Virus record (IMG/VR): IMGVR_UViG_3300044797_000042
Coordinates: 1 to 29,177 of that record
Length of the DNA: 29,177 nt
Source of the DNA: a virus
Strand: one strand, 5' to 3'
The stretch's first letter is position 1. Each line of letters starts with the position of its first letter. Under the pieces are notes generated by a model. The model was not told where the DNA came from and ran no database searches. It was given only the letters and a program-made list of their open reading frames with translations. The translations under genes and the position numbers were made by a program. This document shows, piece after piece, positions 1,816-24,766 of the stretch.

Positions 1816-3234
1816 ATGCCTGATATGACCCCCGTCGGTTCGATGTACCCGCCGGCTAATCCGCTCTCAACGCTCTCTGCTATCTATGGCATCCAGCAGC
1901 AGCGAATTGGGGTACAACAGGCGCAGCAGAATTTGCAGACGGGACAGTATACGCAAGCGAGCGCACAAGCGAATGCCTCGCAGGATCAACAGAAGAATGC
2001 GGAATTGAAAGCCGCGCAGCAGTTGGCGATTCAGGGAGCGAAAAGCGGTCAATATAGCAATTCAGATGGAACATTGAATCGTCAGAAAATGGCTGATGAT
2101 ATGACGGCGATTGGACCTTACGCCGCCTCGAATGCCACTCAATTGCTCTCGCAAGCCAATGAGGTAGTACAGAACCAACAAGCTCACCAAAACTTGACCG
2201 TTTCTCAGAAAAAAGAGATGGGCGATACCTTCGCCTCCTTGGCCGCTGATCCGCAGGTCGATAATACTAAGGTGACCGATGCGGTCGAGAGATTGCGCGC
2301 GGCCCATCCTAACGATCCGAACTATAGTCGCTTGCTGACCAGCATGACGATGCATATGCCGAATACGGCAAGTTCGCAAGATCTGCAGACATTGCTAGGA
2401 CGCTGGTCCTCTGCGGCCACAGGTCAATCGCAGATCGCTCAGGGCACGAACGCGGCCGGCCAAAACCAAGTGGTCAATCTATATACTGGCGCCCGCTCTG
2501 CCCCGCAGCTCGGCCCGGGCGCGACCAATCCCGAGAGCCCTGCCGTCGCGGGCGCGACCGCCGCTGCGACGCTGCCCTATGTGGGGCCGGCCGCGGCGGC
2601 CAGTGCCGCCGGAGCCGCCGAAGGGGCTGCCGGGACTGCGAATCTGACGGGGGTGGCAACTCGTGTGCAGCAAGCACAAGCCGCTGCTAACAACACCGTC
2701 CAATCCCAAGATGCACTCAACCGCGCCAAAGCGATTTTGGAATCGCCAGGCGCGCCCTCGACCGGCACGCAGTACGAGAATGTGAAGGGCCTTAAGAATC
2801 TCATGTCAAGTCTCGGCATTGATACCGAGGGGGCCAATGACATGAATACCCTGACCAAGAACTTGGCACGCTTTGAAGCGGCCCGTGCGACACAAGCGGG
2901 CTTAGGTGGCACCGATGCGGCGCGTGAACTTGCCCATAGCGGTAGTCCCAATACGCAACTTGATAACAAGGCACTTCTAGGGATTGTGCGTCAGTCGCTC
3001 GCCACGGAGCAGGCGGTTGCTTCCTACGCTAACGTCCAAAGTAAAACGAACGATCCTGCCCAGCAACTCAAGAACGAAACGGCCTTTCGCAACATCCCCA
3101 ATCATATTCAAGCTCGGGAATTCGGCATGATGCGAAATCCGAAAGAAGCGGATGAGTATTTGAAGGAGCAAGGGATGACGAAGGCCCAAATGGCCGCGGC
3201 ACGGGCGAAAATGAAAGAGTTTGATACGCAATGA
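1816..3234 (+). CDS. Internal virion (DNA ejection) protein, gp20-like
   Basis: This encodes 472 residues, preceded by a good ribosome-binding site (GGAGG about 8 bases before the ATG). The N-terminal third is extremely Gln/Ala-rich (QQQRIGVQQAQQNLQTGQY) and predicted helical. An Ala/Gly/Pro-rich stretch lies near residues 235-275, and the C-terminal half is charged and helical, ending in KAQMAAARAKMKEFDTQ. It is the middle gene of three coupled large genes and overlaps the next by ATGA. Its composition and position match the second ejection protein of P22-like phages, although no catalytic motif is visible. The role is inferred. Confidence 0.55.
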   Translation: MPDMTPVGSMYPPANPLSTLSAIYGIQQQRIGVQQAQQNLQTGQYTQASAQANASQDQQKNAELKAAQQLAIQGAKSGQYSNSDGTLNRQKMADDMTAIGPYAASNATQLLSQANEVVQNQQAHQNLTVSQKKEMGDTFASLAADPQVDNTKVTDAVERLRAAHPNDPNYSRLLTSMTMHMPNTASSQDLQTLLGRWSSAATGQSQIAQGTNAAGQNQVVNLYTGARSAPQLGPGATNPESPAVAGATAAATLPYVGPAAAASAAGAAEGAAGTANLTGVATRVQQAQAAANNTVQSQDALNRAKAILESPGAPSTGTQYENVKGLKNLMSSLGIDTEGANDMNTLTKNLARFEAARATQAGLGGTDAARELAHSGSPNTQLDNKALLGIVRQSLATEQAVASYANVQSKTNDPAQQLKNETAFRNIPNHIQAREFGMMRNPKEADEYLKEQGMTKAQMAAARAKMKEFDTQ

Positions 3235-4943
3235 GTGACTTCGATCCAGACGCTTATTTGCAGGGTTCGGCACCGACTCAGCCATTTAACCCGGATCACT
3301 ATTTATCATCGGATCAAACGCCTTCCCCGCGCAAAGTCACCACCACGCTTACCCCCTATGACCCGACCGAGGGCATGTCGAACTACGATAAGTTCATGGC
3401 GGCCGCCGGTAAAGCCCAAGTGGATGCGTGGCGCGGGATCAAGCAGCTCGTAGGCGCGGGCGATCAATCGGATATTGACGAATCGGCACGTTTGGATCGA
3501 CCGCTCATGAAAACCGGGGCAGGGATCAGCGGCGATATCGCCGGGAACATCGCGGATGTGGTGATTCCCGCAGGCATTGCCGGGGATGCACTGAAAGCCG
3601 CGGGAGCCGTGAGAGCAGCGGCCGTCGTTGGGGGTCTTGCCAATCCAGCGACCTTCGGAGGCGCTGCCGCCTCGGGCGCTTTGCAAGGCGCAATGCAACC
3701 GGTACCGACCGGGCAGAGCCGTACTCAGAACGTATTACTCGGAGCGGGCTCTGGATTGGTCGGGCAGGGCCTCGCGCGAGGTGCATCCGCTGTTGCGAGC
3801 GCTCTCGCACCCGAAGATGCGGCAAGCAAAGCCGTTCAGGCGTTAACCGATGCAGGTGTCCCTTTGGATGCCGCTCAGCGCACGGGATCAACGCTGTTGA
3901 ATCGCGCCAAAATCATGCTATCCGATAACCCGCTTACTGCGGGAGCGCAAGCGGATTTCCAAGAAATGCAGCAAAAGTCCGTCAACCGGGCATTTCTCTC
4001 AACGATGGGTGAGACCGCCAACGCCGCAACCCCGGATGTGATGAGTCGCGCCATGAATCGGATGGGGAACATCTACGATGATGTGGCCTCGCGCGTAAAC
4101 ATCCCCTATGACAAGGTAGAGACTCCGCTCGCCGACATCATGAACAATGCGCGGCTGACCTTGAATGACAGCCAATTTGGCACCATTTCGAGGAACGCGG
4201 ACGATATCTTGCAGAAGGCCTCGCAGAACAATGGTGTGATCAGCGGGCCGCAATTCCAAAACATCAAAAAGACCTTGGATAGCTTGTCTCAGGGAGGCGA
4301 TTCTGATGTTGCTTCGGTGGCTCGGGATATGCGCCAAGCGATCCATGACGGGCTATATCAGTCTGCGGTGGATTCTGGCAATACCGCCGATGCGCAGCTC
4401 CTGAAACAGACCAATCAGCAATGGCGCAACATGCGCACGATTGAGGGGGCGATTGATAAGCAAGGCAACGGAGATATCAGCCCCGCGCGGTTGGCGAACA
4501 TCATGGGGCAGAAGGCGAATCGCTCGGTCTCGATCTATGGGAAGGGCGATACGACGCTGTCGGATCTCGCCCAGTCAGCCAATGCTCTGCTGCCGCAACG
4601 ATTCCCCAATAGCGGAACCGTGGGGCGTGCGGCCGCGCAGATTGCCATTCCGGCCGCGATCGGCGCGGGGTACGAGGGGATCAAGGAAGGCAATTGGCAA
4701 GGCGCCGCCAAGGGGGCGGTTGCCGGAGTTCTCTTACCGAAAGCGATTCAAGCAACGCTCAATTCTCAAGGAGGACTCGGGCGTGTAGCCAGTGCCGCCG
4801 GAGCCCTGGCGAAGCCCTCAAGTATGTCCGCAATAGCTGGCGGCGTTTTACAGCACGCGCCCTTGTCATCGATTCTCGCTGAGAAGCAACGGCTAGCGAA
4901 TCAGCCGGATATATCCACCCCAGCAGAAGCAAATAGCAAATGA
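3231..4943 (+). CDS. Internal virion (DNA ejection) protein, gp16-like
   Basis: This encodes 570 residues and starts at an ATGA overlap. The N-terminus contains FDPDAYLQGS and FNPDHYLSS, a repeated Asp/Tyr-type short motif. Residues about 60-180 hold several Ala/Gly-rich hydrophobic stretches (AGNIADVVIPAGIAGDALKAA and onward) that could enter a membrane. A long polar helical region follows, with more Ala/Gly-rich segments near residues 465-510. Large phage ejection proteins often have this shape. In P22 the third protein, gp16, acts in membrane DNA transfer. The assignment rests on size, composition and position immediately before the tailspike gene. Confidence 0.55.
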   Translation: MSDFDPDAYLQGSAPTQPFNPDHYLSSDQTPSPRKVTTTLTPYDPTEGMSNYDKFMAAAGKAQVDAWRGIKQLVGAGDQSDIDESARLDRPLMKTGAGISGDIAGNIADVVIPAGIAGDALKAAGAVRAAAVVGGLANPATFGGAAASGALQGAMQPVPTGQSRTQNVLLGAGSGLVGQGLARGASAVASALAPEDAASKAVQALTDAGVPLDAAQRTGSTLLNRAKIMLSDNPLTAGAQADFQEMQQKSVNRAFLSTMGETANAATPDVMSRAMNRMGNIYDDVASRVNIPYDKVETPLADIMNNARLTLNDSQFGTISRNADDILQKASQNNGVISGPQFQNIKKTLDSLSQGGDSDVASVARDMRQAIHDGLYQSAVDSGNTADAQLLKQTNQQWRNMRTIEGAIDKQGNGDISPARLANIMGQKANRSVSIYGKGDTTLSDLAQSANALLPQRFPNSGTVGRAAAQIAIPAAIGAGYEGIKEGNWQGAAKGAVAGVLLPKAIQATLNSQGGLGRVASAAGALAKPSSMSAIAGGVLQHAPLSSILAEKQRLANQPDISTPAEANSK

Positions 4944-11445: not shown

Positions 11446-12059
11446 GGTTTTGTCTTTGCAGAACCACAGGCTACAACCTGGTTTCGTTGTGGTTCATACC
11501 AGGGCACAACCTGGTATCTGTTCGCTAGAAAGAACGCCTCCGCGAATCCTTCGGGCGTCCTGCTGCGGATATTCTTGCGGTCCGGTATTTCTCCCACCAA
11601 GTGCATCTTGCTGCCCTCGGTCGGATGCACAGGATTCTTCTGCGGCATCGTGAACTCGCCCCAGAGGCACGTTCGCTTGGTGTAGGGATCGCCGTAGTCG
11701 CACGGATCGAATGTGGCCGTAGGTTTGCCTATGAAGCGCGATAGCCTCCCTGAGGGGTTCTCCAGCGCCCATACGACGGGTCTGTAGATCGCCACCATGC
11801 GCAGACAGGCATCTACCAGAGCCATCGCTTCGAGGAGTGCCTTTTCTCCCTTTGCGGCCCACCAACGCGCGCCGGAGTTGGCGAGATGGTCACAAGGAGG
11901 GGCTGCAAGGATGACTGAGGGCGCCTGGCGCATGAATGGAAGCGTCCGTATATCCCTGCCGGACTGAAGATCAACGCGTTCCACTTGGAAGCCGGCATCA
12001 GCCCATGGCCGGGACCAGACTCCAGAGTGATCGCACAATGACAAAACGCTAACGCTCAC
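11442..12059 (-). CDS. Compact C5-cytosine DNA methyltransferase-like protein
   Basis: This encodes 205 residues, GTG start overlapping the Ref-like stop as GTGA. Motif IV is intact: LAAPPCDHLANSG, with catalytic Cys56. Motif VI appears as WALENPSG (E100-N101-P102). The DYGDPYTKRTCLWG stretch replaces the usual YG-x-PQ-x-R-x-R motif VIII. Motif I is a degenerate LCDHSGVWSRPW. At about 205 residues it is much shorter than the 320+ residues common in bacterial C5 methyltransferases, so the target-recognition domain is minimal. Such compact forms are found in phages and probably methylate phage DNA against host restriction. The site is unknown. Confidence 0.75.
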   Translation of the reverse strand: MSVSVLSLCDHSGVWSRPWADAGFQVERVDLQSGRDIRTLPFMRQAPSVILAAPPCDHLANSGARWWAAKGEKALLEAMALVDACLRMVAIYRPVVWALENPSGRLSRFIGKPTATFDPCDYGDPYTKRTCLWGEFTMPQKNPVHPTEGSKMHLVGEIPDRKNIRSRTPEGFAEAFFLANRYQVVPWYEPQRNQVVACGSAKTKP

Positions 12060-12397
12060 AATCTTTTCCCGGAACGTAGCATCTCGTTCACCCGCGCCAA
12101 CAGCTCGCGCTGGCTGCCGTACACCTTGTCGAACTCGCGCCGCTCGAGCGTCATCGAGGGACCGCGCATCATTCGCATTTGCGTGACGGTCTTATCCATT
12201 TCAGGCTCGCCACGGTGATGCCACGCACACAAAGGAATCGTTGCTTGATTGCCCCCGGAGTGCTTCCGATAGCCCTTATCGACCAAATGGTGGATCTCGG
12301 GAAGTTTGAAGCCGCCATCCAAGTGACAGGCGATGCAGCCCAATTCCCGCAAGGCTTCATATCGCTTCACATCGCGGCTTTGGCCTTGACGGATCAC
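12056..12397 (-). CDS. Ref-like HNH nuclease (RecA-dependent nuclease family)
   Basis: This encodes 113 residues from GTG 12397, which overlaps the upstream TGA as GTGA and has AAAGGA eight bases away. An ATG at 12448 would add 17 residues that run over the upstream gene. The core has C21-x2-C24 (GCIACHLDGG), EIHHLVDKG (H36-H37) and IPLCAWHHRG (C57, H60, H61), the Zn plus HNH layout of phage P1 Ref-like proteins. In P1, Ref cuts DNA in RecA filaments. RecA dependence here is expected from family but not shown. It lies between a methyltransferase and a helical protein of the early operon. Confidence 0.75.
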   Translation of the reverse strand: MIRQGQSRDVKRYEALRELGCIACHLDGGFKLPEIHHLVDKGYRKHSGGNQATIPLCAWHHRGEPEMDKTVTQMRMMRGPSMTLERREFDKVYGSQRELLARVNEMLRSGKRL

Positions 12398-12720
12398 TGA
12401 ATCAGTCCTTTGGTTCTGGCCGATGACATGGAGCGCCACACATCGCAAATCAGCATTTCCCGACTTCTCCCGTTGCGCATGGCTTCGTGGTCTTTCAGCG
12501 CACCGAAATAAGTCTCCATCGCGGCCTGGTATTCGGGATGAGTACCGGCAATCGCGTTACGCTCAGCGACCGATCCCTCACTACGAAGGAACACCGCATC
12601 CTTCACCGCTTTGGCCCGGTATTCGGCCCGCTCGACTTCGGCATGCAGTTCCGCGACCCGCTCATCCGTTTGAGCGATATGCGTTAAGGCTTTCTCAAGA
12701 CGTGCATCGTTAATGAGCAT
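12394..12720 (-). CDS. Helical early protein, unknown
   Basis: This encodes 108 residues from ATG 12720, chosen because it overlaps the preceding stop by 11 bases. An in-frame ATG at 12792 would extend 24 residues into that gene. It starts MLINDARLEKALTHIAQTDE and is helical throughout, with heptad-like AELHAEVERAEYRAKAVKDA. Sequence neighbours in other phages lie beside recombination genes, as this one does (Ref-like downstream, SSB-like upstream). A role in DNA recombination is plausible but unproven. Confidence 0.6.
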   Translation of the reverse strand: MLINDARLEKALTHIAQTDERVAELHAEVERAEYRAKAVKDAVFLRSEGSVAERNAIAGTHPEYQAAMETYFGALKDHEAMRNGRSREMLICDVWRSMSSARTKGLIQ

Positions 12721-15410: not shown

Positions 15411-15608
15411 ATGGAAAATCCAATCGAAGAACTCGAAAGCCGGGTTTCTAAAAGCTCCCAGGCCTATGTGGCGAACGAACTTGGGATCAGCCCTCAATAC
15501 TTAAACGACGTGTTGAGGCGCCGGCGCGAGGTGGGGAAGAAGATTCTGGATGCACTCGGGCTTGAGCGAGTGGTGGGGTACGTCAAATCGAGGGGGAAGC
15601 GTCGATGA
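15411..15608 (+). CDS. Cro/CI-like HTH repressor
   Basis: This encodes 65 residues. A helix-turn-helix spans about residues 15-36 (SSQAYVANELGISPQYLNDVL), with the AYVANELGIS-x-QYLNDVLR pattern of Cro/XRE-type DNA-binding proteins; GKKILDALGLERVVGY follows. The length fits a stand-alone Cro-like protein with no dimerisation/cleavage domain, so it is not a LexA-type CI. It lies immediately beside the operators at 15328-15357 and probably binds them, limiting leftward transcription. I do not see a strong promoter for this gene itself. It overlaps the next gene by ATGA. Confidence 0.75.
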   Translation: MENPIEELESRVSKSSQAYVANELGISPQYLNDVLRRRREVGKKILDALGLERVVGYVKSRGKRR

Positions 15609-15799
15609 ATTCACAATGTAACCTGGTGTTGAATCATCTGCAGCGGGGAAGGTCTTTAACCCCGGCCGCTGCCATGCATTTATTCGATATCTACCGCCTC
15701 GCCGCTCGCGTGCATGACTTGAAGCGACGGGGACACCGAATCAGAAGCCAGAGGATTCGTCTGTCGAGCGGCTCCTACGTCGCCCAATATTCTCTGTGA
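15605..15799 (+). CDS. Small HTH protein (HTH_39-like)
   Basis: This encodes 64 residues, started at an ATGA overlap and preceded by a purine-rich GGGGGAAG. The order LNHLQRGRSLTPAAAMHLFDIY, RLAARVHDLKRRGHRI and a final Tyr-containing strand SGSYVAQYSL matches a small winged-helix family common in phage early regions. Members are thought to bind DNA; the target is unknown. It overlaps the initiator gene as GTGA, forming a regulator-regulator-initiator unit. Confidence 0.7.
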   Translation: MNSQCNLVLNHLQRGRSLTPAAAMHLFDIYRLAARVHDLKRRGHRIRSQRIRLSSGSYVAQYSL

Positions 15800-16311
15800 G
15801 CATCCGGTTGATGACCATCGTTTGGTCACTTCAAACCTTAAATTGCACCCAGAAGATGGTTTTACTGGCTCTCGCCGATAGCGCCAATGACGAGGGAGGC
15901 TGCTGGCCGAGCATTCCGACCGTCTGCCAAAAAGCTTCTTTGAGCGAACGCGCGGTCCAAAACGCGCTAAGACAGCTCATCAATCTGGGACTTGTTCACC
16001 GCCGCGGGCGCGTGGGGCATAGTAATTATTTCACGGTTTGCGAGGAAGAATTGCAAGCCTTACACATCGACAAGCCTGTGGATAAGTATGTGAATAAGTT
16101 ATCCACAACCCCCGCACGTGGTGCACCCACCCCCGCACGACGTGCACCCCCACCCCCGCACGTGGTGCACCCAGAATCTTCATCTGAACCATCAAAGAAC
16201 CTTCTGAGAGCGGAAAGACCGTTAGAAACGGTTTTCGAGAGAAGAAAAACCAAGAGCGCGACTTCACGCCTCCCAGGTTTTGAGAGCCTCGTCGAGAAGC
16301 TCAAGACCTAG
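15796..16311 (+). CDS. Lambda-O-like replication initiator with internal origin
   Basis: This encodes 171 residues. Residues 6 to about 82 form a winged-helix HTH_36-type domain (QKMVLLALADSANDEGGCWP, then SLSERAVQNALRQLINLGLV and GHSNYFTV), as in phage replication proteins that bind origin iterons. The middle (residues about 95-126) is low-complexity Thr/Pro/Ala/Arg/His because it is encoded by the DnaA boxes and iterons. The C-terminus is basic and may recruit a helicase loader or host DnaB. I see no phage helicase or helicase loader in the window. The GTG start overlaps the upstream stop; ATG 15811 is an alternative. Confidence 0.75.
   Translation: MSIRLMTIVWSLQTLNCTQKMVLLALADSANDEGGCWPSIPTVCQKASLSERAVQNALRQLINLGLVHRRGRVGHSNYFTVCEEELQALHIDKPVDKYVNKLSTTPARGAPTPARRAPPPPHVVHPESSSEPSKNLLRAERPLETVFERRKTKSATSRLPGFESLVEKLKT
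16077..16107. promoter_or_regulatory. Cluster of three DnaA boxes
   Basis: TGTGGATAA at 16077-16085 (minus strand TTATCCACA), TGTGAATAA at 16089-16097 (minus strand TTATTCACA) and TTATCCACA at 16099-16107 all fit the TTATNCACA consensus exactly. The outer two form a perfect nine-base inverted repeat. The three boxes fill 31 bases. The encoded residues (about DKPVDKYVNKLSTT) show no reason for such codon choice. Confidence 0.8.
16109..16172. repeat. Three origin iterons
   Basis: The unit is CCCCC-GCAC-nnn-GTGC-ACCC, each with a small inverted repeat. Units start at 16109, 16130 and 16153. Units one and three carry GCACGTGGTGC, and unit two GCACGACGTGC. The spacings of 21 and 23 bases put the third in another reading frame, so conservation is at DNA level. 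The likely ligand is the initiator encoded by the same gene. Confidence 0.75.
16218..16235 (+). terminator. Weak hairpin with short T run inside initiator gene
   Basis: ACCGTT and AACGGT pair around an AGA loop, followed by TTT. It lies just downstream of the iterons. It might slow RNA polymerase near the origin. The stem is only six base pairs and the T run is short, so this is a weak call. Confidence 0.25.
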
Positions 16312-17392: not shown

Positions 17393-17421
17393 TTGACGAT
17401 CGCGGACAGGCAGAGTAAATT
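17393..17421 (+). promoter_or_regulatory. Promoter for the late/structural cluster
   Basis: TTGACG at 17393-17398 and TAAATT at 17416-17421 are separated by 17 bases, a good sigma70 arrangement. The start site would be near 17428. The ribosome-binding site and ATG 17447 follow directly. All downstream genes read in this direction. Confidence 0.6.
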
Positions 17422-17620: not shown

Positions 17621-17761
17621 ATGCCCGAGCCTCATAAGGGCGAATCGTTGGGCGCTTTTGTCTCCAAGTTTATGGGGTCGAAGGATGCGCGCAAGAAGTT
17701 CCCCAAAAAGTCCGAGCGCATCGCTCAACCCGAGAACGAGCGTGCGAAGCTTAAGCAATGA
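17621..17761 (+). CDS. 46-residue basic peptide
   Basis: This gene begins immediately after the preceding stop and overlaps the GroES-like gene by ATGA. The peptide (MPEPHKGESLGAFVSKFMG, then a Lys/Arg-rich DARKKFPKKSERIAQPENER) is very basic. It could bind nucleic acid. Support is from strict coupling with neighbours rather than homology. Confidence 0.6.
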   Translation: MPEPHKGESLGAFVSKFMGSKDARKKFPKKSERIAQPENERAKLKQ

Positions 17762-18153
17762 GTGTTTCACGTGGAACACGCATCGGCCATGAGTGCTTCG
17801 ATGCCCTGCCGGCGAGTGCTCAAGTTAAGCCCTTACGCGACCAGATTGTGCTCGAGCCCATCGCGTGGCCCTTCAGTGAGGTTATTGAGGTCATCTACAC
17901 GGGGCGCGCGCTTCGGGGCATCGTTCGAGCCGTTGGTCCGGGTTGTTACGAAAAGAAGTACGATGGCCCCAAGGGCAAACGCACGAAGTCCTGGGATTCC
18001 AAGCACTTAAGGCCCTGCGATGTGAAAGTAGGTGATATCGTGCAGTTGGGCGGTCTCTCCTTGGAGGGCTATCTCTTCCAGACCTTCCGCTGGGGCGATA
18101 AGGAGATGGTGATCTGTCGTGAGAACGATGTCACGGGCATCGAAAATGATTGA
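17758..18153 (+). CDS. GroES-like co-chaperonin
   Basis: This encodes 131 residues. From residue 24 the order is VKPLRDQIVLEPI, then a mobile-loop-like EVIEVIYTG, RGIVRAVGPG, a lengthened basic loop, LRPCDVKVGDIVQLGG and finally KEMVICRENDVTGIE. This lines up with GroES (RPLHDRVIVK, GGIVLTG, RGEVLAVG, DVKVGDIV, EEVLIMSESDI). Phage GroES-like proteins replace or assist host GroES in folding the coat protein. No phage GroEL is seen, so the host chaperonin would be the partner. The N-terminal extension carries a parS site. It precedes the terminase genes. Confidence 0.75.
   Translation: MSVSRGTRIGHECFDALPASAQVKPLRDQIVLEPIAWPFSEVIEVIYTGRALRGIVRAVGPGCYEKKYDGPKGKRTKSWDSKHLRPCDVKVGDIVQLGGLSLEGYLFQTFRWGDKEMVICRENDVTGIEND
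17763..17778. promoter_or_regulatory. Perfect parS (ParB-binding) site
   Basis: TGTTTCACGTGGAACA is exactly the reverse complement of the Bacillus-type parS TGTTCCACGTGAAACA, the 16-base centromere site bound by chromosomal ParB/Spo0J in many bacteria. It is inside codons 2-7 of the GroES-like gene. No ParA or ParB gene is present in the window, so binding would depend on host ParB. Confidence 0.75.
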
Positions 18154-18389: not shown

Positions 18390-18785
18390 GTGAATGCAGT
18401 TCTCAAGTCCCACCTGTGGCAACCTGGACAATCCGGGAATCCCGCGGGGCGCAAAAAGGGCAGTCGAAACAAGCTCGAGGAAGCCTTTCTCGCCGATCTA
18501 TCGGCCGATTGGTCGGAGCATGGTCCTAGCGCGATTGATGCGGTACGGCAGGATGATCCATCGACCTACCTTAAAGTGGTCGCAAGCCTTATGCCGAAGA
18601 TGGCTGATCCTGACGCTGCCCTTGAGGGATTGAGTCGGGATGAGCTCCGTATCGCCATCGATGCCCTTCGATCCTTCCTTGCTCCTCGAGACGCTGATAG
18701 CGCAGGAAGCGCGCTTGGCGAGTCAGGAAAAGTTGAACGATTACCGTCCTTATCCGAAGCAGTTAGCCTTCCACGCTCGGGGTAA
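18390..18785 (+). CDS. Terminase small subunit-like (DUF5681-type) protein
   Basis: This encodes 131 residues from GTG 18390, which has AAGGTG about four bases upstream. The N-terminus reads WQPGQSGNPAGRKKGSRNK, a conserved DUF5681-type motif (basic DNA-binding tail) placed at the start of proteins next to large terminases. A helical region DPSTYLKVVASLMPKM follows. The last 49 residues are translated from DNA that also encodes the start of the large subunit. Recognition of packaging sites in the phage genome is the expected role. The assignment comes from motif and position. Confidence 0.65.
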   Translation: MNAVLKSHLWQPGQSGNPAGRKKGSRNKLEEAFLADLSADWSEHGPSAIDAVRQDDPSTYLKVVASLMPKMADPDAALEGLSRDELRIAIDALRSFLAPRDADSAGSALGESGKVERLPSLSEAVSLPRSG

Positions 18786-20079
18786 GGACTATCGAGAGCG
18801 GCTTTTGATGGCCGGCAACCAATTAGGCAAGACACTGGCCGCGGGGATGGAATATGCCATGCATGCGACGGGTCGATACCCCCCCGCGTGGCCTGGCAAG
18901 CATTATGATCGAGCGATTGTCGGCTGGGCCGCAGGGATTACCGGCGAATCGACTCGGGACAATGTTCAGCGCATCCTCTTAGGCCGCCCTGGTAGCTATG
19001 GAACGGGCGCCATTCCTAAAGACGCGATTGAGGACATTACCCCCGCTCGGGGGCAGCCTGATCTACAAGATTCCATCAAAGTGCGACACGAATCGGGGCA
19101 AGTGAGTCACATCGCGCTCAAAAGCTATGAGAAGGGGCGCGAGAAATGGCAGGGCGAAACTCTCGATATGGTGTGGTTCGATGAGGAGCCGCCCCTGGAT
19201 ATTTACTTAGAGGGCCTGACCCGAACCAACAGCACGGTCGGGCCCGTGTTCGTGACCTTCACGCCGCTTTTGGGTATGTCGGATGTGGTCAAACGCTTCT
19301 TGCTCGACAAGGTGCCCGGGACTTCGGTTACGCAAATGACCATCGATGATGTCGGGCATTACACGAATGAGCAACGAACCGCGATCATCGCCTCCTACCC
19401 GGAATACGAAAGGGATGCGCGCACGAAAGGCATTCCGCAGTTAGGGTCCGGGCGTGTCTTCCCCATCGCCGAATCGGAGCTTCAATGTGAGCCCTTTGCG
19501 ATCCCGGCGTACTGGCCGCAACTCGGGGGTTTGGACTTCGGCTGGGACCACCCCTCGGCGGCGGTTCGAATGGCCTGGGACCGCGATAATGACTGCTTAT
19601 ACCTCCTCGCCTGTCATCGACAGCGAGAGCAGACGCCGGCGATGTTTTCAGCCTCTATTCGCCCGTGGGGAGACTGGCTCCCCTGGGCGTGGCCTCATGA
19701 TGGTCTGCAGCATGATAAGGGGTCTGGCGAACAACTCGCCGCCCAGTATCGGGCTCAGGGCTTGAAGATGATCGGCCAGCGGGCGACCTTTCCCGATGGG
19801 ACGAACGGGTTGGAGGCGGGTGTTGCGGAAATGCTGGACCGGATGCAGACTGGGCGTCTCAAAGTATTCTCAACCCTATCAGACTGGTGGGAAGAGTTTC
19901 GGATGTACCACAGGAAGGATGGTCTCATTGTGAAGATGCGCGATGACCTGATGAGTGCCACGCGCTACGCCATGATGATGCGCCGCTTTGCCGAGGTGCA
20001 GTTCAAGTCGGTCCCGCCGAGCGGTCGCTCCTTCTCCGCGCAGCCTAGGAACGATGGCTTGGGATGGCTCGGGTCATGA
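18640..20079 (+). CDS. Large terminase subunit (packaging ATPase/nuclease)
   Basis: This encodes 479 residues. Walker A is AGNQLGKT (residues 58-65), Walker B is LDMVWFDEE (D181-E182), and a following TFTPL motif fits the coupling segment of terminases. The nuclease domain shows LDFGWDHPSA (D299) and WPHDG (D354) as metal ligands, with a third acidic site likely near MRDDLMSATRYAMM. It powers DNA translocation into the prohead and cuts concatemers. The start overlaps the small-subunit gene by 146 bases in another frame. ATG 18661 is an alternative, but homologous-looking residues begin by residue 30 in either case. Confidence 0.9.
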   Translation: MSSVSPSMPFDPSLLLETLIAQEARLASQEKLNDYRPYPKQLAFHARGKDYRERLLMAGNQLGKTLAAGMEYAMHATGRYPPAWPGKHYDRAIVGWAAGITGESTRDNVQRILLGRPGSYGTGAIPKDAIEDITPARGQPDLQDSIKVRHESGQVSHIALKSYEKGREKWQGETLDMVWFDEEPPLDIYLEGLTRTNSTVGPVFVTFTPLLGMSDVVKRFLLDKVPGTSVTQMTIDDVGHYTNEQRTAIIASYPEYERDARTKGIPQLGSGRVFPIAESELQCEPFAIPAYWPQLGGLDFGWDHPSAAVRMAWDRDNDCLYLLACHRQREQTPAMFSASIRPWGDWLPWAWPHDGLQHDKGSGEQLAAQYRAQGLKMIGQRATFPDGTNGLEAGVAEMLDRMQTGRLKVFSTLSDWWEEFRMYHRKDGLIVKMRDDLMSATRYAMMMRRFAEVQFKSVPPSGRSFSAQPRNDGLGWLGS

Positions 20080-20157: not shown

Positions 20158-22290
20158 ATGCCCCAAGTTCCCACCGATCAGGACACTCCCGCCGAGACGG
20201 ATGAGGAGATCTGGGCCGAATGTGCGGCGCGTCACAAGATCGCCGAGGAAGTCGAATCGACCAATCGGGTGCTTGCCATCGAGGACCTCGAGTTCGAGGA
20301 TGGGCAGCAGTGGCCGGACGATATCTACAATATGCGCAAGGTGCAGCGCCGGCCGACGCTCACGATCAACCACACGGCGACCCTGGTGCGGCGCGTGACG
20401 AACAACATGCGCGAGCAGCGCCCGCGCATCAAAACTCACCCGGTCAGTGATGCGACGATTGACGATGCGCGGGTCGCCAATGGGCTCGTGCGCCATATCG
20501 AGACGCTCTCGAAAGCCTCCGTCGCCTATGACACCGCGGGGACTTCGGCGGTTCGAATCGGCTGGGGATATGCCCGAGTCATCGGCGAGTATTGCGATGA
20601 GAAGAGCTTCGATCAGGAATTGAAGATCAAGCCCATTCGTAACGCCCTCTCCTGCTATATCGACCCCGCCGCGGAGATGCCGGACGGCGCCGATATGGAC
20701 TGGTTCATCATCACGGTGGAGATGAAGCGGGCGGATTTCAAACGCAAATACCCCGGGGAGCCGTTGAATGAGTGGACGCATGGCTCGGCCGGGGATCAGC
20801 AAAGGAAGTGGGCTTCGCGTCAATCGATTCGACTGGCCGAGTACTATCGGATCAAGAAGACCAAAGAGACGCTCTACAAGCTCTCGACCGGCTCGACGAT
20901 CTATGCTTCCGACTACCGCAAGAAGAAAGCCGCTTTTGATCTGGCGGGGGTATCGCTTGCCTTAGATCAGAGCGGTCAACCGATTGAGCGCGCGAGCGAG
21001 CGTCGTCAAGTGCAGTGGTTTCGTATCACGGGAACCGAAGTCGTTGAGAAGCGAGACTTGCCGGGTCGCTGGATACCGATATCCCGCTGCGAAGGCAATG
21101 TCCTTGACTTAAACGGGGAGGTGCGCAGGAAGGGCATGATTCGGGACATGAAGGACCCGGCCCGCAGTGCGAACTATTGGGAGACCGCGAAGGCGGAAAA
21201 GCTCGCCCTGTCCTCCAAAGCCCCGTGGGTGGGCGTAGAGGGACAGTTCGACGGACACCCTGAGTGGGATGATGCGAATCAGAAGCCCTATTCGGTCCTT
21301 AAGTACAAGTTGATCTTAGGGGCGGATGGGAACCCCTTGCCCGGTGTGCCGCCCCCGCAAAGACAGCAAGCGGTGGAGGTCGAGGCGGGGTTCAAAGAGG
21401 CCGCCGAATCCGGTTTGAGGAACTTGATGGCGGTCGCGGGCATGCCGCACGATCCGACGCAAGATGCCCCGGGCTCGGTCGTATCGGGGATTGCCTTGAG
21501 GCGACGGCAGGCGATCTCCGACATGGCCCATTATCAGTTCTACGACAACCAGACGATGTTTATCAGCCACATCGGGGAGATCTGCTTAGACTTGATCCCG
21601 TATTACTACAGCCAGGAGAAGATGCAGCGCATCATCGGGGAGGATGGCGTGCCCTCGATGGTGGCGATCAATCAACCGAGGCCCAACCCCTCCACTGGGG
21701 TCATGGAGCTTTCCCATAACATGACGGTCGGCAAATACGATGTGGTCATGGACACGGGACCGGGGTATGAGACCAAGCGCCAGGAGGGGGCTGAGAACAT
21801 GCTCGACCTCTTAAGGACCCCCTTGGCGGAGCCCATTGCCAAGACGGGCGCCGATTTGATCGTGCGCAATATGGACTTTGCGGGGGCGGAGGATTTGGCC
21901 GATCGCTTAATGCCGTTGAACGAGCAGGGCATGCAAAAGGCGATGGAGAATCTACCGCACGAGGCGAAGGGGATCGTGCAGGCGCTGCAAATCCAGAATC
22001 AGCAATTGCAACAGGAGTTGCAAAAGACGCAAATGGAGTTGAAGTACAAGGTCACAACCGAGCAGGGCTGGATGCAGGTCGAGCGCGAGAAGATGCATGT
22101 GGCGGCTGTCACCAAAGTCCACGATACCGACCGGCGTGCCCAGACGACCTTGGAAGCGGCTGAGATCAAAGAGGCGGGATCGCTCTTAGATACCCATGTC
22201 CAGGGCAAATACGATGCGGCGGCGAGGAAGGATGAACTTGCCGCGGCGAAACAGGCAGAGCGGGATAAACCGGCAAATGGAGCAAGTTAA
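20158..22290 (+). CDS. Portal protein, P22 gp1-type
   Basis: This encodes 710 residues, close to the usual length of P22-type portals (about 725). Conserved-looking segments are VESTNRVLAIEDLEFEDGQQW, RRPTLTINHTATLVRRVTNNMREQRPRIK, VIGEYCDEKSFDQELKI, then AISDMAHYQFYDNQTMFISH and a C-terminal coiled coil (QIQNQQLQQELQKTQMELKYK) that fits the P22 portal barrel. The dodecameric ring is the DNA channel and the site where terminase, gp4-like adaptor and ejection proteins meet. AAGGA lies 11 bases upstream of the ATG. The stop overlaps the scaffold gene as TAATG. Confidence 0.85.
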   Translation: MPQVPTDQDTPAETDEEIWAECAARHKIAEEVESTNRVLAIEDLEFEDGQQWPDDIYNMRKVQRRPTLTINHTATLVRRVTNNMREQRPRIKTHPVSDATIDDARVANGLVRHIETLSKASVAYDTAGTSAVRIGWGYARVIGEYCDEKSFDQELKIKPIRNALSCYIDPAAEMPDGADMDWFIITVEMKRADFKRKYPGEPLNEWTHGSAGDQQRKWASRQSIRLAEYYRIKKTKETLYKLSTGSTIYASDYRKKKAAFDLAGVSLALDQSGQPIERASERRQVQWFRITGTEVVEKRDLPGRWIPISRCEGNVLDLNGEVRRKGMIRDMKDPARSANYWETAKAEKLALSSKAPWVGVEGQFDGHPEWDDANQKPYSVLKYKLILGADGNPLPGVPPPQRQQAVEVEAGFKEAAESGLRNLMAVAGMPHDPTQDAPGSVVSGIALRRRQAISDMAHYQFYDNQTMFISHIGEICLDLIPYYYSQEKMQRIIGEDGVPSMVAINQPRPNPSTGVMELSHNMTVGKYDVVMDTGPGYETKRQEGAENMLDLLRTPLAEPIAKTGADLIVRNMDFAGAEDLADRLMPLNEQGMQKAMENLPHEAKGIVQALQIQNQQLQQELQKTQMELKYKVTTEQGWMQVEREKMHVAAVTKVHDTDRRAQTTLEAAEIKEAGSLLDTHVQGKYDAAARKDELAAAKQAERDKPANGAS

Positions 22291-23383: not shown

Positions 23384-24766
23384 GTGAATAACCTGCTCAC
23401 CATGAGCTATATCACCAACGAATCGTTGGTGGTGCTCGAGAATGAGCTGGTCATTGCGAATCGGGTCGAGCGTCAGTATTCCGCTGAATTTGCTCAAACC
23501 GGCGCAAAGATCGGCAATACCTGTAACGTGCGCCGTCCGCCCCGCTTTAAGGGCACCTATGGGCCGCCCCTGAATGTCGAAGATACGAATGAGACCTACA
23601 TCCCGGTCGCTCTGAACTATCAGTTCCACGTCGATATTCAGTTCACGACCCAGGATTTGGCGCTCTCGATGGACATGTTCAAAAAGCGTGTCCTGAAGCC
23701 GCAGATTGCGACCGTCGCGAATCGCATCGACTCCGACACCGCGCAGTATGCGTACTTGAACACCGCCGCGCAGTTGGGCACCTTTGGCGTGAGCCCGAAC
23801 TCCTTGAAGCTCTTCACCGATGCGCGGGCGTATCTGGCGAATGAGTCGTGTCCGCGCGAGGGCGAGAAAAACGCGGTCCTGGACCCGACTTCCATGTCCT
23901 CGATGGTTGCGACCGTGCAGGGCCTGTTCAACCCGCAAGCGAAGATCGGAGATTATATCGAGACGGGCATGATCGCCCGGGAGTTCGCGGGCCTTGACTG
24001 GTGGGAGGATCAGAATATCCCGGTCTTTACGTGCGGTAATGGCGGAAACGCCGCCGCCACGATGACCACGGGTACCTCCACCGCGCTCTTAACCTCCGGC
24101 TGGGCGCAGTCCGGGACCATTCAGACCACGGGCTGGACCGCCTCCACCGCGGTGGTTCAGGTGGGGGACATCATCCAGATTGCGGGTGTGTATCCGGTCA
24201 ACCCGCAAAACCGCAATCAGTACGGCAAGACGCTTCGGCAGTTCGTGGTATTGCCGCCAGGCGGCTTTGCGGTCCCGGCGAACGGGGCGGCGGGCACGAC
24301 CTTGACCTATGGGGCGGCGACGCTGACCGCGGGTACCTTCAATCCGGTGACGGGTGCCTACACGTCGAGCTCGAGCAACACGCTCACCTTGACCATTGGC
24401 GATTGCATCATCTCGGGCGGTCAGTTCCAGAACGTCACGGCGGCGCCCGCGTCCACCGCGGCGATCTATTTGAACGGCGTGATCACTCAGACGAACTATG
24501 CGGCCAACTCGATTGGCCCCTCCGGGGTCGTCTCCCCGCAATCTCTCGTGTTCCACAAGTACGCCTATGCACTTGCCTTTGCGGACTTGCCGCTCCCGCG
24601 CGGTGTGGAGTTCGCGGCCCGCGCCTATGACGATGAGGATGTGGGAATGAGCATTCGGGTGGTCTCCCAGTACACGATCAACAACGACAGTGAGCCGAAC
24701 CGGGCTGATGTGTTGTATGGGCCGGCGAGCCTGTACCGCACGTTGGGCCTTCGGATCGCAGGTTAA
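23384..24766 (+). CDS. Major capsid protein, P22 coat-type
   Basis: This encodes 460 residues from GTG 23384, with AGGAG five bases upstream. The first half shows TNESLVVLENELVIANRVERQ, then GNTCNVRRPPRFKG and FTTQDLALSMDMFKKRVLKP, features of the P22 coat (HK97-fold) family. The residues about 215-380 form a Thr/Gly/Ala-rich inserted domain in the place of the P22 I-domain. The ending (FADLPLPRGVEFAARAYDDE, SLYRTLGLRIAG) also fits the family. Length is slightly above P22 coat (430). It is the target of the scaffold and probably of the GroES-like protein. Confidence 0.85.
   Translation: MNNLLTMSYITNESLVVLENELVIANRVERQYSAEFAQTGAKIGNTCNVRRPPRFKGTYGPPLNVEDTNETYIPVALNYQFHVDIQFTTQDLALSMDMFKKRVLKPQIATVANRIDSDTAQYAYLNTAAQLGTFGVSPNSLKLFTDARAYLANESCPREGEKNAVLDPTSMSSMVATVQGLFNPQAKIGDYIETGMIAREFAGLDWWEDQNIPVFTCGNGGNAAATMTTGTSTALLTSGWAQSGTIQTTGWTASTAVVQVGDIIQIAGVYPVNPQNRNQYGKTLRQFVVLPPGGFAVPANGAAGTTLTYGAATLTAGTFNPVTGAYTSSSSNTLTLTIGDCIISGGQFQNVTAAPASTAAIYLNGVITQTNYAANSIGPSGVVSPQSLVFHKYAYALAFADLPLPRGVEFAARAYDDEDVGMSIRVVSQYTINNDSEPNRADVLYGPASLYRTLGLRIAG

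Follow-up and report, generated by a model that had tools for sequence, protein, structure and literature searches.

Shifting parS sites in P22-like viruses that lack ParB suggest borrowing of the host chromosome-sorting machinery

Introduction

Bacteria sort their chromosomes with the help of parS, a 16-base DNA tag read by ParB, and few bacterial tags are as conserved as this pair. In known parS, the first of two free positions is a pyrimidine and the second a purine (Y..R). Here, we describe a parS-type site on a virus record of 29,177 bases (IMGVR_UViG_3300044797_000042), the whole of which was analysed and is called the window below. The site shares with chromosomal parS of the ParABS system (Bacillus subtilis Spo0J/ParB type) the same 16 bases, the Y..R signature, and the occurrence as single dispersed sites, but its setting is a phage genome that encodes no ParB rather than the neighbourhood of a host origin. 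The phage-plasmids and mycobacteriophages P1, N15, RedRock, and First likewise have a centromere-type site and no known integrase. They bring ParA/ParB and centromere repeats of their own (PMC7157519, PMC3585329), whereas the window has a host-type site and lacks the ParB gene in the same genome that marks a phage-encoded ParABS locus. No description of phages that use host ParB via parS was found in the open literature, a body that excludes preprints and most subscription journals. P22-like podoviruses have the families of large terminase subunit (TerL), portal, and coat protein in common with the window; P22 itself, unlike the window, has no parS site, and its enterobacterial hosts are not known to have a canonical chromosomal ParB-parS.

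An exact parS in the late region of a P22-like podovirus

The record is a fragment of the genome of a P22-like podovirus, with P22-type portal and coat proteins and a matching terminase (Pfam: P22_portal, E 6e-140; P22_CoatProtein, E 2e-29; Terminase_6N, E 1e-28; Table 1). The lambda-O-like replication initiator of its early module starts at 15796, and a RecA-dependent nuclease (Ref-like, PF16786) lies in the minus-strand early region at 12056-12448.

Table 1. Features of the window that bear on the parS site.
Feature	Coordinates	Strand	Basis
Exact parS TGTTTCACGTGGAACA	17763..17778	+	Pattern match; 7e-5 expected in window
GroES-like (co-chaperonin 10) gene, codons 2-7 = parS	17758..18153	+	Profile match to PDB GroES
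Small upstream ORF, stop 1 base 5' of parS	17621..17761	+	ORF; homologue in G020
Sigma-70-like match TTGACG-17-TAAATT (late promoter of the initial annotation)	17393..17421	+	Near shuffle level
Small HTH (Cro-like) protein, winged-helix protein, and lambda-O-like replication initiator (early/replication module)	15411..16311	+	Pfam
Terminase large subunit (TerL), query for relatives	18640..20079	+	Pfam
P22-like portal protein	20158..22290	+	Pfam
P22-like coat protein	23384..24766	+	Pfam

The site has zero mismatches to the chromosomal parS consensus TGTTNCACGTGNAACA, as the initial annotation had claimed for a Bacillus-type parS. Its free positions are T..G, i.e., Y..R as in known parS, and its reverse complement, TGTTCCACGTGAAACA, is the B. 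subtilis spo0J parS. The site departs from the palindromic consensus for locating parS in genomes, TGTTTCACGTGAAACA (PMC10197239), in a single base, which is one of the two left free. The base composition of the window predicts 7e-5 exact matches in 29,177 bases, and none occurred in 60 dinucleotide shuffles. The site sits in the phage late region, not beside parAB near a chromosomal origin, beginning 1 base past the stop codon of one ORF and encoding part of the start of the next (M-S-V-S-R-G-T-R). Read as an RNA hairpin, it showed nothing unusual (z -1.3).

The GroES-like name given to the downstream gene holds. Pfam Cpn10 alone scores under the cut-off (E 0.0034), and the label is fair because a profile of 16 relatives matches PDB GroES at E 1e-8 (profile 19-125). 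Phage DSL-LC04 (L488:6593-7045) and pelagiphage HTVC023P (L490:12146-12586) also have an annotated GroES co-chaperonin gene, placed between those for portal and capsid; phage GroES inside the head module is recurrent. A late promoter had been proposed about 340 bases before the site; a match is present there, yet it is not clearly above expectation, with 3 promoter-like matches in the region against 1.8 +/- 1.3 in shuffles.

Presence is kept and position turns over in the closest relatives

Relatives were collected via the GroES-like protein (19) and via TerL (80), and whole records or loci were scanned for parS. The two closest, G001 (TerL 90%) and G020 (TerL 88%), have end repeats marking complete genomes of about 39.8 kb and form one supported clade with the window in the TerL tree (SH-aLRT 97). 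In G001, an exact TGTTCCACGTGGAACA precedes the GroES-like gene by about 1 kb. In G020, a parS core, AGTTCCACGTGGAACC, falls precisely on the gene junction that holds the site in the window; it arrives on a 27-bp insertion missing from G001, whose sequence is otherwise nearly identical there. The stop codon of the G020 homologue of the small upstream ORF overlaps this core. Conservation at the same position is rejected for most relatives, which have no parS at the homologous place, with G020 as the sole exception. In these genome sequences, the presence of parS is therefore kept among the closest relatives while its position turns over, both G001 and G020 having the site at different places. 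It is not indispensable: G002 (TerL identity 84%) and G006, both close relatives in which no known integrase was found, are also without parS.

Two other features of these genomes were seen. G001 has an ORF of 300 aa made of long near-repeats rich in Ala, Arg, Asp, and Trp (AARDAAGAAAWAAAGDAGWAAG...; L302:15841-16743). G001 and G020 both encode a lysis-region protein of 462-463 aa (L301:2906-4294 and L303:3834-5225) that by eye resembles a fusion of a glycosyltransferase and a sulfotransferase.

parS recurs at non-homologous places across the wider family

With the window left out, 1.22 Mb of sequence from relatives contains 14 copies of the core GTTNCACGTGNAAC, and 12 dinucleotide-shuffled versions of it contained 0-1 cores each. 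All 14 family cores are Y..R at the two free positions (p = 4e-9), a count that is independent of the pattern since these two N positions played no part in the core search. Control palindromes that keep the composition of the half-site, or that combine CACGTG with other arms, had no exact matches in the TerL relatives. An origin by chance, or as a neutral remnant of recombination with the region around a host origin, would fit the finding that most relatives are without a site at this position, but is hardly credible given the low expectation in the window, the 14 cores against at most one per shuffle, the phage genes that flank the site, and the insertion of 27 bp as the only difference between G020 and G001 at the site.

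Roughly a fifth of family members carry parS, at non-homologous places that include positions upstream of other genes, the scaffold region, the tail region, and the early region. Presence switches at least 9 times on the TerL tree, which therefore implies repeated gain or loss. The initial annotation had proposed retention of the site in relatives as a check: most do not keep it here, while both closest relatives have a parS and about a fifth of the wider family have one elsewhere. In integrated prophage relatives (genomes mostly of Ensifer), parS was much rarer, at 2/80 against 13/65 (p 0.0007), a comparison confounded by kinship and host. Many Ensifer/Sinorhizobium prophages have a related terminase (L221-L300), and several genomes have two of them (e.g., L229 and L249).

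These placements bear on local regulation, in which ParB at the start of the GroES-like gene would block or tune late transcription. The window site does lie at a gene start about 340 bases past the promoter-like match, but the relatives' sites lie before other genes or in the scaffold, tail, or early region, shuffles yield promoter-like matches about as often, and the spacing to the promoter is not conserved. This variable placement speaks against the late-gene repression proposed earlier, and local regulation is very unlikely.

Host ParB as the most likely reader

A phage-encoded ParB was considered as the reader of parS and rejected: ParB_N (PF02195) was found in none of the 45 family records, comprising the window and 44 relatives including the complete G001 and G020. 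ParA was likewise absent among the window ORFs scanned with Pfam, a part of the ORFs of a genome fragment. The earlier statement that the window has neither protein thus stands for ParB, and for ParA it extends to the ORFs scanned. Since the site is a genuine parS-type sequence on a phage without ParB, host ParB would be its natural binder, as had been proposed. Identity to chromosomal parS, together with what is known in general of ParB-CTP clamps (review: PMC12704722), makes host ParB the most likely reader.

Neither a tyrosine or serine recombinase nor an S24 repressor was found in the window (a fragment), G001, G020, G015, or G016; of related kind, the window has only the small Cro-like HTH gene. 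Across two comparisons, the counts relating parS to lack of an integrase (1/12 against 11/33, p 0.14; 3/50 against 4/22, p 0.19) run in the expected direction but are not significant, and a link between the two was not retained.

We consider it probable that this is a real parS and draws host ParB to the phage DNA, to the benefit of the whole molecule. Host ParB-CTP clamps would load at the 16-base parS, close, and then slide across the adjoining phage DNA. The ParB-coated phage genome might then be handled like a piece of the chromosomal origin, with ParA holding or moving the DNA and SMC being received. The gain would be a property of the whole molecule, so that one parS anywhere in the genome would be enough; a function of this kind fits best with single sites whose position varies, and it is favoured by the recurrence of parS at non-homologous places. 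The most likely gain would be partition or nucleoid tethering of a non-integrating genome, whether as an episomal or long-lived carrier form or in early infection. Within the host-ParB reading, we give partition or tethering about half of the weight and SMC loading or DNA protection the rest; the integrase counts lean, without reaching significance, toward holding or partition of a non-integrating genome. The shifting parS sites and the missing ParB suggest that these P22-like viruses borrow the chromosome-sorting machinery of their hosts.

parS in other virus contigs

The exact parS pattern occurs in at least 120 stretches of IMG/VR. The form TGTTCCACGTGGAACA likewise reaches at least 120, against 54 stretches for a control palindrome with AGCT for ACGT, which was searched in the whole collection and never occurred twice per stretch. 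Among the matches listed, 138 of 145 exact sites (95%) are Y..R, against 25% by chance, which argues that nearly all of the listed viral sites are real parS; in the flanking bases, A is preferred before the site and T after it, which is again palindromic. Palindromes are typical operators, and the site could instead serve a phage or host regulator not yet recognised, whose operator shares the parS sequence by coincidence. We regard this as quite unlikely, as it is the full 16-base parS, with Y..R and the A/T flank preference, that recurs in unrelated phages, and the family has no ParB-fold protein.

We took 50 parS carriers of at least 26 kb among the matches listed. They have one to three parS sites per record, 2 of the 50 have ParB_N over the cut-off, and 3 encode a tyrosine integrase. 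At 20 loci tested, a good part of the large genes near parS are phage genes (such as TerL, portal, DNA polymerase, helicase, and tail), so these contigs are not simply host DNA.

The carriers also bear on titration, in which many phage copies would pull ParB and SMC off the host origin and upset how the host segregates its chromosome or divides, with a gain for the phage. A free position and a count of one to three sites per genome agree with such a decoy, and T7-like polymerase or helicase genes are present in some carriers, phages that would need no partition; however, more sites would be expected of a decoy and no phage of the family has a site array, and we hold titration to be unlikely. 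Recruitment of host ParB for the whole molecule is also compatible with lytic use (positioning, protection, or ParB titration), since some carriers have T7-like replication genes.

More broadly, there is an even chance, in our estimate, that many unrelated phages have acquired a 16-base host centromere without partition proteins and pirate host ParB, and via it ParA and SMC, for the inheritance or positioning of their genomes, which would amount to widespread gene-free partition in trans. If phages widely have parS without ParB, infection would commonly draw on chromosome segregation proteins as a host factor. Phages that do not integrate might then be inherited although they encode no partition gene, and they would escape searches that recognise phage-plasmids by ParAB genes. 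A 16-base site also offers a simple knock-out by which the idea can be tested.

Among 22 cultured phages, some with hosts expected to possess ParB, no Y..R parS was found at up to 1 mismatch; the set included F116, P22, LUZ24, PaP3, Rhizobium phages, and BcepIL02, with BcepIL02, DSL-LC04, and HTVC023P covered over 50 kb only. A separate IMG/VR contig of 6.3 kb (L033) has five exact parS within 800 bases (2657-3444), an array that is either a fragment of a host origin or a phage with a parS array.
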